The translations under genes were made by a program, and so were the position numbers. From NCBI GenBank assembly GCA_034231615.1, contig CM067309.1, positions 24,667,965 through 24,731,964 of the forward strand: a stretch of DNA of 64,000 bases, read 5' to 3'. The notes under the pieces were generated by a model. That model did no database searches and was not told where the DNA came from. It was given only the letters and a program-made list of their open reading frames with translations. Numbering within the stretch: position 1 is the stretch's first letter; each line of letters begins with the position of its first letter. Shown here one piece after another: positions 1,735 to 30,977 of the stretch. This DNA comes from Meghimatium bilineatum (lineage: Eukaryota > Mollusca > Gastropoda > Stylommatophora > Philomycidae).

Positions 1735-2190
1735 TTTAAATATCTAGGAAGCATTTTTACAGCAGACAGAAAAATTGATCAAAATTGAGTTGACGTACCA
1801 ATTGACACCGCTACTTAAAACCTGGCAACCAAACGACAGATATTAAACACTATCTTTATTTCAAGGTTATGTTGCCACTACCAGACAAGGCCCCTGACAA
1901 AAACACTCTTGAGAAAGATTACATGCGAGATGAATGCCTGAGAAAGGCTATAAATGTCACCAGAAGAGACCAAATGAGAAATGAAGACATCAGAGAGATA
2001 GTAAAGACCATATCATGCAAAAACAATATATAGAGAGACAACAGATAAGCTGGTTCGGACACCTTATGTGAATGTAGCCATCCTTACGTACAAAGAAAAA
2101 AGAATGGCTACAAAGCAAGAGGAAGACCAAGAACAAGGTGGGAAGATTCAATCAGAGAGGTTGTCAAAAACCACTGCCTAACCATAGTAA
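1735..2190 (+). pseudogene. LINE-E 3' fragment (reverse transcriptase C-terminal region), decayed
   Basis: Broken plus-strand frames give the usual C-terminal words of RTE-like LINEs: EFKYLGSIFTADRK near 1740, then RNEDIREIV and RQQISWFGHL near 2000-2070, and YKARGRPRTRWEDSIREVV near 2118-2165. Several stops and shifts make it non-functional. The same family lies on the minus strand at 10880-11470. The reverse-transcriptase core is absent, as is typical of 5'-truncated insertions. Confidence 0.75.
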
Positions 2191-2374
2191 GAGCAAAAGA
2201 TAGAAAACTTACTCCCCCATGACATCTAACAGAAAAAAAGACGATAGACAGATAAGGGAGGGGGGGAAGAAAGATGAGACTATAATGGTAATTCTTGGCT
2301 TCTGAAGCATACCAGATTACAAGTGTATTGCCAGGACCAATGAATGGCAACATTTTTACTTGCCATGTATATCA

Positions 2375-2686
2375 TACATAACAACTAAGGAGGTTCAGGG
2401 GTGGAATTGGCTGTCCCATCCCATACAGAGTTATAAAGTGACACGGAATACATGCTTAAATCTGAAGTGTCTGATTTAAACACACTGGTATCACAGCCAA
2501 ACTGTTTTTTCGACTCTCAGGAATTTCATACCGAGAAGACTTCATCTCTCATAAGTGATAAATGCTTTGATAAGTCTTCTACTCACAGAAGTATATCAGC
2601 CAAGCTGCAAAGCATGACACACAATGAATTACATTCTCCGTACTACATCCTGCTAATATGCAAGAGTTTGAGACTAAGAAGAGAAG
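2375..2686 (+). mobile_element. SINE-S2 copy, diverged and partly replaced
   Basis: The start of the core (ACTAAGGAGGTT, then GGCTGTCCCATCCCATA) is at 2381-2426. The 3' part (TACTACATCCTGCTAATATG, then GAGTTTGAGAC and AAGAAGAGAAG) is at 2641-2686. Both parts match the intact S2 copies at 40104-40380 and 52978-53260 in the same order. The middle differs. The 3' end lies only 22 bp outside the splice donor of the exon at 2709-3075. Confidence 0.65.
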
Positions 2687-2708
2687 TATTTCATAATACT
2701 AGACATAC

Positions 2709-3075
2709 CTTGACTGTAACATCCTCCGAGGGCTGGGCATCTGGCTTACGTACGATGGCAATTGTCACATTGTCCTCTAGCTCAAATGGATTCTGAGTAT
2801 CGACTGTAAACCGCTTGTGAAGTGTCATCCGTGCAGACTTCTTTTTGCTGGATGCACTGACCCTCCTCTGGGGGATCACACTTGTAGAATTCAGTGCAGA
2901 TGTCCCATCATTTTTTATCTGCGAGGAAGAAACTTGTGATCTATTACGTGACCTGCTTCTTGGTCGCTTTGGTGCAGGACTGATGTCAGTTGTTGAGTGG
3001 TGGGTTCTTTTCTTCATGGGTAGACCAGGATCCAGAGATGGTGACAGCCTCCTATCTTTGATGTCTCGTTTATTT
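2709..3075 (-). CDS. Exon c of the Arg/Ser-rich nuclear-type protein
   Basis: The acceptor is TTTGTATCTAG and the donor is CAAG/GTATGTCT. The exon encodes 122 codons after one base shared with the previous exon. It contains a basic serine-rich segment (KRPRSRSRNRSQVSSS) that looks like an RS-type or nuclear localisation region, followed by a less biased segment containing FTVDTQNPFELEDNVTIAIV. Phase 2/1 joins exon b, whose final AG plus A makes Arg. Phase 0 joins exon d. No stops interrupt it. I infer a nuclear RNA-binding or splicing-associated protein. No enzyme motif is visible. Confidence 0.8.
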
Positions 3076-3275
3076 CTAGATACAAACATAAGACTCATGA
3101 CATTATACAATATGTCAAGATTATTACACAACCTGACTACTTTCATCGGCGCACAGTTCCTGTTATGTCGTGATATTTTAGGCCAAGTCAAAAGTTTTCT
3201 TTTGTCTGTGCAGTCAGCACGCTCATGTGGCAACCAGAGTCTAGATTTCTCATTCAGGGTGCAAAGAATAGAATA

Positions 3276-4137
3276 GTATCACTGTCTTCTTTCCATGCAT
3301 GTTGTAGGAGGCGAATAAGGAAAGTTGGGAGATTGCAGATAACCTATTACCTATGAACAAGTCATCATTGTCACTGCACATCTTGTCTTGATTTCTTACT
3401 TTTGTCTTCTGTCAATTGGTTCCCATGGATGGAGAAGAGATGCAGAACAGCGAACATTGCAACTCTGTCCTTTTGTAGCAGGGAATGTCAGTTGTCCTAT
3501 TACTGCAGATGGATCAACAGACCTGACACTATGAATGGTCCAATGGTGAACTAGTTGGTCCAGAAGTGTATGCTGCTCTCATGGCAGGACATGATCCTGG
3601 GATGCTGTCACAATGGAATGCCTCCTTTCAGGAACTAAACATACATCCATAAACACCCCCATAACACAACAGTGCCTTTGACAAACCAAACCTTGTACAA
3701 GTTTGGGTCTCGCCTCAGAAAGACCTATGCTTTTATTAGAAAGGCTATTGGTTGTCAAAAACTACTACTCACAGCCAAAAGAATTACTTCATCATCATCA
3801 TGTGGCCAGCAATGATGATGTTTATTTCATCCCTGAAAGAAAATACCCGATTGTGAGATTAATCATAACTCTTCCCTTATCACATTCAATTTTGATAAAA
3901 CTTCTACAAGTTCTACAACTTAAACAGTTCTACAAGTTTGACTAAACTGTACATCTTGTATACCAACAAGAATGATATAGCCATATCCGAGTTATTCAAG
4001 AAGATGTTTTATTTTCAGCAGCGCTAACAAAATTGGGCGTGTGTGCTAGAAACAGGTAACATGATGATGATGATAGAACCCAGAGGGAGTGTGAGTTGTT
4101 CACTCTTGATCTCAATTAACCAGTTGACCCCATAACC
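3276..4137. other. Intron sequence without recognised genes
   Basis: This is AT-rich intronic sequence of the Arg/Ser-rich gene. A short ITADGSTD reading near 3500 is reminiscent of an RNase H start, but it has no supporting context. I see nothing else I can name. Confidence 0.5.
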
Positions 4138-4265: not shown

Positions 4266-5498
4266 GAGAAACTTTAACCCTTAGGGATGCAACTTTAGAA
4301 ACATTAACACAAAAATTATATCATGCCTCTAATTTTATTTCTTTGTTTGAGTTTAGAGAAAGTGAGTATTATTATTTGCTGATCCTTATGCCAGGCAGTC
4401 GATTGCATCTTCAGATTGACGTTTTTCTTACAATCTCTTGGATAAGTTAGTTTTCCAGAACTTTCCAAAGTTCCAAATGACTTTTGATTAATTTGGCTGT
4501 AGTATCAATATTAATGCTATGATATGGACTGTCTCCTATGATGGAGGGTACTTTGCAGAGACTTTCTCACAATCGTGAGGCTTGATAATGATGTTCACTC
4601 TCATCCAACCCAGGTATGGGATACTCAGGTGACTTCATTGCACAGGAGATCATGAGGTGGGGAACCTAACCACATGCAAAACTTCCTTAGTCACCTCTTA
4701 CAATATACATGGCAGGGTGGCCATGTCGAATCAATATTTTCTTTAGAGGTTGAAAAATGCAAGAATTATTGCCATTGAGCATCTCAGAACTTGTGTGGAC
4801 AATGTAACAAGATAAGACACACAAGTATTTCTGGTATGAAGGTGAAGGATTTCTTCAGTAACAAGATAAGACTTATTTTTACTATTCTTTGCTTCACTTA
4901 TGGGGCCACACATAAGGATGAAGGTTAGATTAAATACTGTGTAAGGTTCCTGTCCATGTTGTCACTTGAACTATCGCAGAAAAAGTCTAACAAGATGCCA
5001 CCAAGTATGATGGTCAGTGATTGCTTCATCGATCTCTAATCAAAACCAAAGAAGCATCTCAACACACCTTGGTAGCTGCCCACCTCCATACAAATGTTAA
5101 CACGGGTATGAAAATTGTTGAGAATTAATGACTTTGCACTCATTTTTAAAATGTCCCAGAGAGTTGATTTCACTGTACTAAGCTTTTGTCCTGTGTACTC
5201 CATCAACAGAGCTGCATGCCACGTACCGAGAGTACTGCTCGCAGTACATAACTCAGTAATTTCATACATTAATCCTCAGGGAACTCTGAAAAGATGCACT
5301 TGCAAAGAAGACTTCACTGTATGGTTTCAAATTCAAATTCTTGTGAACACAAGACAAACTCCTTAAGCACTTATGCCACAGAGATGCCCTATATAAAACA
5401 AAAAATAAGTTCATGGTAAAAGTTTGGAAACTACAATACTAAATACTACTTACATCCAGGCATGTCCTATACATGAATTGCCCCTTTCAGCTAACTTA
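4266..5498. other. Intron sequence, no gene recognised; weak SINE-S2 core near 4690
   Basis: No convincing exon was found. The stretch CTTAGTCACCTCTTACAATA at about 4686-4720 resembles the conserved S2 core (CTTAGTCGCCTTTTACGACA in the copy at 52978-53260) and is probably an old, worn copy. Confidence 0.4.
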
Positions 5499-20420: not shown

Positions 20421-20876
20421 TTTGTTCATTAGGTTACTGCGGCACCATCCACTTTGTCGGACACCCTCTTTTGGTTATTTATACTTCCTGTTTAGGGTTG
20501 TTACCCTACACTGGAAGATTTATCCCTTGGCCTTGGAACACAAGCTCGAGCTCCAATCACCCATATGTTAACGGCAAGAGCGGTAACAAGAAACCTGGGG
20601 AAAGACAATAGACAACAAAAAAAAACTAACAAAGAAATTTTTGTATAAAAAAACATAATTAAAAAAAGGTGCAAATTTAAACAGCTTATGTGATTGTATA
20701 CTGTTATAAAGATACAAAAGTTATACTTCTTAGATCATAAATTTTTCCAGTTGCAACATAAGCCTACGGGTGCAAGACTTGGTCTATAAATAGAACAACA
20801 GCAAACAAAAATGTCGACATTCGAACTGAATGAAGTGTTATAGGACAATATTAAGAATTTCTTGAACAAATAAAAT
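20421..20876. other. Mostly unassigned; a short LINE 3'-end-like word
   Basis: AAGCTCGAGCTCC...CACCCATATGTTAACGGCAA at 20542-20577 resembles, in the opposite strand, the LINE tail at 30185-30230. The rest is AT-rich and unrecognised. Confidence 0.4.
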
Positions 20877-20897
20877 AAGGAACGGTTAGTTAGTTAG

Positions 20898-22879
20898 TTA
20901 CTTAGTCGTCGGATCATCATCACTGCAAACTGGACACATCCATAGTTGCTCCGATCTCTCCTTGAGTGTATCCGCCATCACACTTCTGCTGACAGTACCG
21001 GTCCTCTGCTGGTTGACCATCATTCTTCTGCGCCCTCCAAAATGTTCACCTCTAGCAACACCGCATTTCAATCCCTGATCTTTAATCATAGCCATTGAAA
21101 AGGAATCATCATCCACATTAGTCTCACTCTCGCGTGTTATATCTCTTAAGGAGTTCAAAACGTCAGCGCGATCCATTGCCCCATCGCTCTTTGCCACAAT
21201 CGCACACGATGCCAGTTGATCCGCTCTTTCATTGCCTCGAACACCCACATGTCCCGGCACGAAAATAAATGTAACCGCTTTCAAGCTCGCATTTCTCAAG
21301 GCCTCAATCCACTGTTCGCGAACGAGACCCGCTTGTACCTTCTTAATCATACTCATAGAGTCACTCAAGATGCAGACCTGCGTTACTTTCTGTGTGCGTA
21401 GCCACTCAAATGCCTTGGTCACCGCCATAGTCTCCATGGTCATACTACTCGTAGTGACCACAAAGGCACCACTTTCCTCCTTGATCATTTTACCTGCGCA
21501 CTGAGCTGTAAAGGCCCAAGCACTGCGAACATGCCTAATTACAGATCCATCAGTGTATATAATCACATCCCCCTCTTTGGTATTCTCACTGATTAAAGCC
21601 TGCACTTCTTTCTCCACAGCTGTGGGACACCATTCTCTGCATTCCCTGCTAAGTGATATTACTACTCTCAAACAAGTTTCGAAATCTGTGGGTAGACCTA
21701 TCCATTCCGCACCTGCTGCCACATCCTGTAATCTGCACACGCTTTCTATTACATCCTCAGCACGTCCCATCCACGACCTTCCTGTCTTGAGTCTGCTGCC
21801 TTTAACTTTCTGTATTTCGGAATGCAACGGGTGTTCCTTATCTGCATGTATTTGAAGGTACGCCCGTGCACGGCAATACTGTAATCTATGCTCAGCTGTT
21901 GGGCAGTCAAGTAGGTATCGCATAGCTCTTGTCGATGTGTCTCTTGTGCATCCCAGAATGATACGCATTGTTGCATTCTGGACTCTATCCAGTCTTTCGA
22001 TCTGAGTTTGGCTAAGAGTCAGAATTGCCAGTGCATATTCCACCACAGCCACAACCAAACCCTGGTACAAAAGAAATAACACTCTTTGCTCACACTGCGC
22101 AGCAGCCATAACCTTCATTGCTGCTAAGCCTTTGCCTGCCCTTATGATAATGTGGTCAACATGTTCCCTGAAACTCAGGCTTCTGTCAAAAACACACCCA
22201 GATATCTCATTGTGCTAGTTCTTTCTAAACTTTTCCCGGACAACGAAACTTGTGGCATGGGTGTCTTTACCATGTGATTGTTCAAGGAAAACCACGTCAC
22301 GAATTCCTTAGACGGATTAACCACTGCTCCCGTATCTCGACACCAATTTGTCAGTCTGTCCAGCTCCTTCTGTAGTTCCACGACGCACTCTTCTCGATTT
22401 CTGCCCTGTCTATACACCAGGATATCATCGGCATATGACATCGTTCTGCCAACACCTGTGATTTGATTGCCAGCGATATGTACTGTGTATACATTGAAAA
22501 GTACAGGAGATAGAGGCGATCCCTGTGGCAGGCCAGGGCTAATAACCGTTGGTGTAGATATCCAGCTACCACACTTAAGAACTACAACCCTGTGCATCAG
22601 GGCGGCGCCAACCCAACGCACGACAAAAGGATTAACTGCAAGATTTAACAGCTGGTGCATCAAGATATCCAAGGACACCCTATTGTACGCATCCTCAAGG
22701 TCTATTGCGACCGCACATGTCTCCATGCGCGAATCGAACCCCTCAAAAACATCCTGCGCAAATATGGCTGCATTCTGCCATGTCTTCTTTCCTCGACGAT
22801 ATCCTCCTAACAATGTTGGTAAACACTTATTTCTTTCAAGATAACACGATACCTTCCGGTCAGAGAAATGTGGAGGCAT
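20898..22879 (-). pseudogene. LINE-A reverse transcriptase and RNase H ORF with one frameshift
   Basis: The first frame (22879-22175, 234 codons) contains reverse-transcriptase blocks AIDLEDAYNRVSLDIL, SPGLPQGSPLSPVLFNVY and SYADDILVY (catalytic Asp pair), then MRYLGVFLTEA. The second frame (upstream of 22118 to 20898, 406 codons from its Met) continues with the thumb and an RNase H domain: IIYTDGSV (Asp), SSMTMETMA (Glu), CILSDSMSM (Asp) and PGHVGVRGNERAD (His/Asp), so all catalytic residues are present. It ends with a short Cys motif WMCPVCSDDD. One missing T in a T run near 22187 causes the only frameshift. Joined conceptually to the inverted part, this is a LINE of the I/Jockey-like group with RNase H. 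The endonuclease is absent, so it is truncated. Confidence 0.92.
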
Positions 22880-23222
22880 ATCAAGAAATTAGGAAAACGC
22901 TCACAGACACGTGTAAGAACTTGAGCATGGAAAACCATAGTTGAAGAAATCAGGAAGGCACTGAAAAGTACAAAAAAATACAGCACCAGGGCCAGATGGC
23001 ATTAGATACGATGACATTAGTCGAAGAACGGATGAGGAGGTGGGAGAGTTGGCGGACATGTTCAATAATAGCCTTCTAAAGGGCACAGTGAAAGAAGACT
23101 GGTTGCACAGCTATTTAGTTCCACTACACAAACCTGGCAAGGATCACACCAGGATACATGGCTACAGAATAATAACTATGCAGAATACGATTGGCAAGCT
23201 TTTGGAAAAAATTGTGGCCCGG
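22871..23222 (+). pseudogene. Inverted 5' segment of LINE-A (N-terminal RT blocks)
   Basis: The plus strand reads EAYQEIRKTLTDTCKNLSME, then after a shift VEEIRKALKST, TAPGPDGIRYDDI, ADMFNNSLLKGTVKEDWLH, SYLVPLHKPGKDHTRI, HGYRIITMQNTIGKLLEKIV and ARK. These are reverse-transcriptase blocks that precede those on the minus strand at 22850. Two frameshifts are present. The segment ends exactly at the target-site duplication. Confidence 0.88.
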
Positions 23223-23257
23223 AAGGAACGGTTAGTTTTGAGTAAGCTGAATATAGA

Positions 23258-23540
23258 TGAAGGATGGCTGGTGAATATAATTTTACATAGAAACTGAAAT
23301 ATTTCGAACATATAAAAAGCATAATGACATGAAAAGACGCATCTTAGACGGCAGAATCCCGGAAAGCAGAAGAAGAGGTAGACCTATAAGGAGATGAACA
23401 GCTGAGATAAAAGACTGTATGAAGTTATTATTTGAGGAGCAAGTAGATTGGCACAGGATAGAGTCGGGTTCGTGAAATCCATTGCAAAGACAACGTTCTG
23501 GGAAGAATATGTCGCGTAATGTAAGGTCACGCATTGCATT
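23258..23540 (+). pseudogene. LINE-D 3' fragment
   Basis: The plus strand reads RILDGRIPESRRRGRPIRRW followed by TAEIKDCMKLL after a stop. This is the C-terminal GRPRRRW block of an RTE-like LINE, the same type as 31260-31575. Only the 3' end is present. Confidence 0.65.
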
Positions 23541-29684: not shown

Positions 29685-29828
29685 ATTAGTAATCTGAATG
29701 ATGGTCAACCAGCATAGGACCGGTACTGTCAGCAGAAGTGTGATGGCGGATGCACTCAAGGAGAGATCGGAGCAACTATGGATGTGTCCAGTTTGCAGTG
29801 ATGATGATCCGACGACTAACTAACTAAC
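29685..29828 (+). mobile_element. LINE-A 3'-end insertion, 144 bp, with 11-bp target-site duplication
   Basis: Target duplication TAAGTTTAGTA at 29674-29684 and 29829-29839. The insert codes the last residues MVNQHRTGTVSRSVMADALK-like and CPVCSDDDPTT, followed by the ACTA-type tail. Confidence 0.88.
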
Positions 29829-29839
29829 TAAGTTTAGTA

Positions 29840-30180
29840 GTTTTTTTTCTAAATTGATCATGGTTGGACAGGCTGAGACAAAATTGTCACAGTATCACCA
29901 CCAACATAAAATATACTTTTATTATAGAACTTAGATAAAATGTACCTATTGTATTCTGCAGTGTTATTAATCTATACCCCTGAATCCTAGTGTGATCTTT
30001 GCCCGGTTTACATTGTTATTAATCTATACCCCTCTATTCTAGTGTGATCTTTGCCCGGTTTAGGCAGTGGTATAACATAGCCGTGTAGCCAGTCATCTTT
30101 TACCTTTCCCATCTTTACCTAACAAGATGAAGATATATTGTCTATTCCCTGTCCCCGGGTGAATGACGAATGATCGTATT
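29840..30180. repeat. Direct duplication of about 49 bp; otherwise unassigned
   Basis: TGTTATTAATCTATACCCCT...TAGTGTGATCTTTGCCCGGT occurs twice in a row at 29962-30010 and 30015-30063. Nothing else was recognised. Confidence 0.6.
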
Positions 30181-30441: not shown

Positions 30442-30967
30442 GTAACCGAAGCTTTGCAATGGGTCTGCTCGCAGACTATCTGCGAACATGCCTGCATACT
30501 CAGTGACTCGATGAGCATGATTGTGAAAGTTCAGGCGAGATACATTCGGGAACAGTGGCTAGATGCAGTGAAGAATTCCTGTATGCGTAAAGTGACTTTC
30601 ATTTTTGTGCCTGGACATGCGGGAGTCCGGGGTAATGAGAAAGCAGATAGGTTGGCCGCCGCACATGCTGCTACTACAGCTGTTGGTGGAGCAATGGATC
30701 GAGCAGACATTTTGAACGCCCTACGGGAAAACGCACGAGCAACGACTGCATAAGTGACGATGACTCTAGTTTCATGACTACAATAATGGAATTTGGTTTG
30801 AAATGTTGTGTCGCTAAAAAGGTTTCGTGAGCAAGAAAGAATTATGGTCAATCAACTGCGTACTGGGACCGTCAGTCAACGTGTAATGGCGACTACACTC
30901 AAAGAGATATCTGAGCATCTATGGACTTGTCCGGAGTGCAGTGACGATGATCCAACGACTAACTAAC
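30442..30967 (+). mobile_element. LINE-A 5'-truncated insertion with 10-bp target-site duplication
   Basis: Target duplication TATTGTTCAA at 30432-30441 and 30968-30977. The plus-strand ORF reads VTEALQWVCSQT, ACILSDSMSMIVKVQA, VTFIFVPGHAGVRGNEKADR and MDRADILNALRENARA, i.e. the second half of RNase H and the C-terminal tail. One frame break lies near 30750. The 3' end is ACTAACTAAC. Confidence 0.92.
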
Positions 30968-30977
30968 TATTGTTCAA

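Follow-up and report, generated by a model that had tools for sequence, protein, structure and literature searches.

The window, a stretch of 64,000 nucleotides from contig CM067309.1 of Meghimatium bilineatum, contains a recently inserted copy of a LINE of ~3.8 kb that has an endonuclease, a reverse transcriptase (RT), RNase H and a (TAAC)n tail; the upstream part of the copy is inverted. Twin priming, in which both cut DNA ends prime on one RNA, is best known from mammalian LINE-1 (L1), and we consider it by far the most probable origin of this insertion (probability about 0.93). The evidence consists of the geometry of the insertion, the adjacency of its two pieces on the RNA, its target-site duplication, unoccupied paralogous sites and the recurrence of the arrangement within the family.

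An exact 15-bp repeat, AAGGAACGGTTAGTT, flanks the insertion at 20877-20891 and 23223-23237, as the sequence-only reading had claimed. The window has no further match to it even when two mismatches are allowed; 0.11 matches would be expected in shuffled sequence. This single pair encloses two pieces. The tail-bearing 3' piece (C) occupies 20892-22859 on the minus strand and is colinear with the element (element positions 1846-3821). The upstream piece (B) occupies 22858-23226 on the plus strand (element positions 1475-1853); it lies directly upstream of C in the RNA and is inverted, with its RNA-3' end at the flank. The copy of the repeat at 20877-20891 lies on the tail side of the element and that at 23223-23237 on the inverted, 5' side. 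The tail match of C extends to 20886, within the tail-side copy. Because seven of the 15 bp (GTTAGTT) are also tail repeat, the true duplication measures 8-15 bp, and the median of 11 bp in 34 truncated sister copies makes ~11 bp a plausible length for the window element. The inversion had been recognized from the start, with limits (22871-23222) that proved slightly short.

C has profile matches to RVT_1, from profile position 20, and to RNase H, in agreement with its earlier description as the minus-strand 3' part carrying both domains. B encodes APGPDGI to IVARK. The B peptide gave no Pfam match, and among the sequences of solved structures it aligned with human ORF2p residues 470-549 (E = 1.3e-5). 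A stretch of C beginning at ORF residue 30 aligned weakly with ORF2p 596-738 (E = 0.037); extrapolation of this weak alignment would place the start of C at about residue 548, adjoining the end of B. Compared with sister copies, B has lost 11 bp and gained one A, which explains its broken frame.

Sister copies were sought in the host assembly (1.61 Gb, 32 contigs), and the 40 with the best scores among 5471 candidates were retained, many of them at 98-99% identity. By table coordinates, B and C are contiguous in 32 of the 39 places other than the window; the remaining seven end before B. The junction sequence TTGTGGCCCGGAAGGTATCG is read through without a gap, with B and C colinear, in all 14 aligned sister copies, three of which (L010, L021 and L025) have single substitutions within it. 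In the window, B ends with GGCCCGGAAGG and C begins with CCGGAAGGTATCG, which sets B at its full extent of 22858-23226 and lets C reach 22859. The two ends, adjacent in the RNA, share an overlap of 8 nt, CCGGAAGG, found at 22852-22859 as the 5' end of C (minus strand) and at 23219-23226 as the RNA-3' end of B (plus strand). The check set beforehand, that both pieces should belong to one family and be neighbours in it, thus came out in favour of the claim, and the inverted part does end at the flank with the sequence just preceding C. A different source for B had been suggested by its identity to the sister copy L014 (94.7%, vs 98.5% for C); this idea was dropped because, relative to the majority base of the 14 sisters, B shows only 4 mismatches in 368 besides the 11-bp deletion and the added A.

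These data also bear on the possibility of two independent events, namely an insertion of C and a separate, oppositely oriented fragment B. Repeat fragments are common in the window, which speaks for such a history, but one duplication pair surrounds both pieces and their ends are neighbours in the RNA. Moreover, B and C abut with a shared 2-nt joint (GG, 22858-22859), where a further duplication would not fit. The shared duplication and the adjacency together refute this history for practical purposes.

The state of the site before insertion was approached with a query of 654 bases in which the flanks were fused without the element. The search gave 2049 candidates at first look; among the 40 matches listed, 38 cross the join without interruption at 81-84% identity, and the remaining two correspond to the flanks in the window itself. 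The element thus inserted into one member of an old, ~475-bp repeat, of which the left part lies at 20700-20891 (joined-flank search) and the right part at 23238-23521 (joined-flank search and alignment). The sequence-only reading had held that an allele without the insertion should carry the target once. In all six unoccupied sites read, the corresponding stretch occurs once and has substitutions, so the single target copy was upheld, at sites that are paralogous rather than at an allele of the locus. The host repeat is abundant as well as old, and its right part encodes RILDGRIPESRRRGRPIRR, which we take to resemble the C-terminus of a different type of LINE.

The arrangement recurs within the family. 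Among the best 40 copies of 5471 candidates, a sample that favours long C parts, a 5' inversion was found in four (the window copy, L009, L022 and L029). A second sample, blind to 5' structure, was drawn with the 3' 200 bp of the window copy as query; it favours copies close to that of the window, because the best 40 of 1825 candidates were taken. Ranks 1-23 were examined: six copies are inverted (the window copy, L009, L067, L082, L084 and L085), 16 are truncated copies in which BLAST shows no inverted piece, and in L070 the 5' end was not reached. With the window copy, chosen beforehand, left out of the rate and L070 counted as not inverted, the structure-blind inversion rate is 5/22 (95% CI 8-45%), indistinguishable (Fisher P = 0.58) from the 18.4% (165/897) given for human germline L1 (PMC12016303). 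The two samples together comprise 60 distinct copies, eight of them inverted. The seven further inversions have the same orientation as that in the window and target-site duplications of 11-14 bp. For L067, which is located within a tandem repeat, the duplication and joint values were read by eye; about 510 nt in the middle of its B are unread, and the spacing of both ends fits.

The positions at which B ends and C starts on the element, taken from BLAST boundaries, are 1853/1846 in the window copy, 489/493 in L009, 499/494 in L022, 1919/1968 in L029, 1976/1971 in L082, 2467/2461 in L085 and 333/3157 in L084; for L067 (1761/1760) the end of B comes from a separate analysis. The two positions are at most 20 nt apart in six of the eight inversions, for which the chance with random positions is 4e-11. 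L029 has a 48-nt gap between B and C. In L084 the adjacency is absent, with 2.8 kb missing before C, and B reaches the 5' end of the element plus TCC, the outcome to be expected if the second cDNA had run off the 5' end of the RNA; GGA precedes the 5' end in two of the four full-length copies (L039 and L040).

An ordinary 5'-truncated insertion in which B was later inverted in place, by recombination or break repair, would give the same order and orientation, and bases are indeed shared at the joints. The outer breakpoint would, however, need to have hit, or come within 5 nt of, the border of the target-site duplication in all eight inverted copies, in each of which a duplication of 11-15 bp lies at, or no more than 5 nt from, the outer (RNA-3') end of B. 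Nor would a conservative inversion yield the apparent B/C overlaps of 2-8 nt in five copies (partly common to the target), or delete the 48 nt of L029 and the 2.8 kb of L084. We give in-place inversion a very slight chance. Twin priming as claimed by the sequence-only reading, in contrast, is supported by the contiguity of B and C, the shared CCGGAAGG, the single-copy paralogous sites and the seven further inversions, with L084 lacking the adjacency.

The joints between B and the target were compared under a strict rule, which gave microhomologies of 4, 2, 3, 0, 1 and 2 nt in six inversions; the other two have an unmatched stretch, of 5 nt in L029 and of 2 nt in L067 (by eye). Matching bases (1-4 nt) are thus present at five of the eight target joints, the longest being AAGG in the window, and absent from that of L082. 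The summed microhomology of 12 nt compares with ~3.4 nt expected under a simple model (P about 0.003, or 0.0005-0.007 depending on the base match rate). An earlier sum of 21, read by eye, was replaced by these strict counts, which are weaker. As a control, 45 truncated copies were considered (L021 and L044 had been excluded beforehand), and 34 remained after 11 without a repeat of at least 8 bp were dropped. Filler at the target joint was not significantly rarer in the inversions than in the truncated copies (2/8 vs 19/34, P = 0.24), so a lack of filler as a mark of twin-primed joints has no significant support. The modest size of the microhomologies, the B/C gaps of L029 and L084 and the unexplained ~40-nt filler of L022 likewise speak against twin priming.

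The filler in 19 of the 34 truncated 5' joints indicates that untidy repair does occur, and opens the question whether a host repair polymerase, by template switching, joined element cDNA or an element copy to the target end without second-strand priming by the element RT. The ~40-nt filler with a 15-nt element match in L022 and the small inverted duplication in L021 are further signs of untidy repair. Against it, the B pieces of ~1.1 kb in L085 and L067 (the latter with its unread middle) are long for repair synthesis, as is that of L084 with its extension to the 5' end of the RNA, and B starts at the border of the duplication with 1-4 matching bases in five of the eight cases. We regard this explanation as having a slight chance.

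In L022 (sense-oriented), the filler lies at 4609-4648 between the inverted and the colinear parts and holds CAGAATAATAACTAT, which equals element positions 1792-1806; a template switch within the element RNA is a possible source. L021 (sense-oriented, ~5384-5441) is a truncated copy that starts at element position 1286 and has a 21-bp inverted piece (element positions 1475-1495) between its duplication, a short filler and its start. On the element, this piece and B of the window have one end in common, and L011 is truncated at 1471; a stop site of the reverse transcriptase is possible there. Five copies (L020, L037, L038, L046 and L067) start within element positions 1758-1766 by BLAST boundaries. 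Among 54 starts, with four full-length copies, L044 and L070 left out, 8 pairs lie within 2 nt of each other vs 3.2 expected (P = 0.02, uncorrected; at 0, 1 and 3 nt, P = 0.03, 0.12 and 0.005, also uncorrected), which is no more than suggestive of a clustering of reverse-transcriptase stops.

Returning to twin priming, we propose the following course of events for the window insertion. The element endonuclease would nick the plus strand after AAGGAACGGTTAGTT, and the 3' end of the nicked strand would prime synthesis of C on the RNA tail, so that C would represent the first-strand cDNA of target-primed reverse transcription. The minus strand would be nicked 8-15 bp away, and its 3' end (...CCTT) would pair with an internal AAGG of the same RNA. 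AAGG at 23223-23226 forms both the last 4 nt of B and the first 4 nt of the target; it fits the pairing predicted by twin priming and is probably the second-strand priming site. A second cDNA, B, would be extended from AAGG toward the 5' end of the RNA, both cDNAs would be joined at the 2-nt match, which would leave B in reverse orientation before C, and the target would be duplicated as the stagger was repaired. The order of the nicks, the RNA pairing and the joining step are our interpretation of the finished product.

Four full-length copies of the family (L014, L027, L039 and L040) have a common start base and a length of ~3.82 kb. In L014, two open frames (764 and 433 aa) match endonuclease, RT and RNase H in that order, and the endonuclease is of the apurinic type. 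Of the label I/Jockey-like in the sequence-only reading, we take this domain order to fit the I group and not Jockey proper. I-group LINEs, which include I, Ingi, Nimb, R1 and others, share with the window family the order of the three domains and a short tandem-repeat tail; they differ in that no separate ORF1 of at least 100 aa is among the open frames listed for L014 (the one copy read), in which the long frame begins 226 nt after the 5' end. Members of the L1 clade end in poly(A) and are not known to carry an RNase H domain, and the window family, with its (TAAC)n tail and RNase H, falls outside that clade. No relatives of the C protein were found in the viral contig and genome contig collections or in the phage-record search, and Rfam and tRNA scans of the window gave no matches. 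The 5' ends of the four full-length copies begin with CTTCCGGTCAAAATGG, which looks similar to ETS and YY1 sites in the internal promoters of LINEs.

The window also holds other members of this lineage. The family of the inverted copy is represented again at 29696-29831 by a second young copy, of which 5' truncation has left 136 bp; its identity is 99%, and AAGTTTAGTA stands on both sides. Older relatives were seen at 29945-30103 and 30492-30969, where two adjoining B-like pieces on the minus strand (element positions 1715-1821, 74-78%) precede a plus-strand RNase H part (67%); together they are possibly an older inverted insertion with an internal duplication.

Twin priming of human L1 was reportedly described by Ostertag and Kazazian in 2001, a study cited in PMC4245944 and PMC12016303. 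Human L1 inversions resemble the window insertion in having a target-site duplication, an inverted upstream cDNA and a colinear 3' cDNA with its tail, the ends of which are often adjacent on the RNA; human L1 has a poly(A) tail, whereas the window family has a TAAC tail and an RNase H domain. According to PMC12016303, 46% of human L1 inversions (132/287, somatic and germline) have their ends within 20 bp, the median duplication is 13 bp, and the inversion breakpoints show peaks. The corresponding figure here is 6/8 within 20 nt, and eight inversions are too few to call this a difference.

In one cell-culture study (PMC4245944), human L1 in human cells was the only source of 5' inversions, with the single exception of one zebrafish Nimb-2_DR insert in chicken DT40 cells. 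The same study reports that the L1 inversions mostly had target-site duplications of 10-20 bp; its authors tie 5' inversion to features of L1 and host and to overhangs of 10-20 nt, and propose that ~5 nt of overhang may not suffice for priming. Nimb-2_DR, with a duplication peak near 12 bp in that study, is similar to the window family, with its mode of 11 bp; it contributed one inverted insert in cell culture, whereas the window family has eight natural inverted insertions in one genome. A paper on Drosophila R1/R2 has "twin priming" in its reference list only, and a passage of an R2 integration paper mentions it for L1. Among the titles found on twin priming in invertebrates, Drosophila, insects, molluscs, Bombyx and non-LTR elements, a partial coverage of that literature, none concerned inversions of an invertebrate LINE.

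Twin priming is already known, and taken singly the insertion is an ordinary event, though the family is unusual; what is of use is that a putative I-group LINE shows inversions at an L1-like rate, and recurrence at that rate merits a second look. For annotators, a fair share of the copies in such families would have a flipped 5' end and may show as two separate matches. The 11-bp mode of the duplications fits the overhang idea of PMC4245944. We tentatively suggest, at somewhat less than even odds, that twin priming is a speciality neither of L1 nor of mammals and that any LINE with a 3' overhang of ~10 nt or more twin-primes in about one-fifth of its insertions. The window family, with its 11-bp mode, 5/22 structure-blind copies inverted and eight inversions with duplications of 11-15 bp, would be a natural test of that overhang hypothesis. 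An RNase H-bearing, non-L1 LINE with an L1-like inversion rate and duplications of such length offers natural data for separating the effects of clade, host and overhang length.
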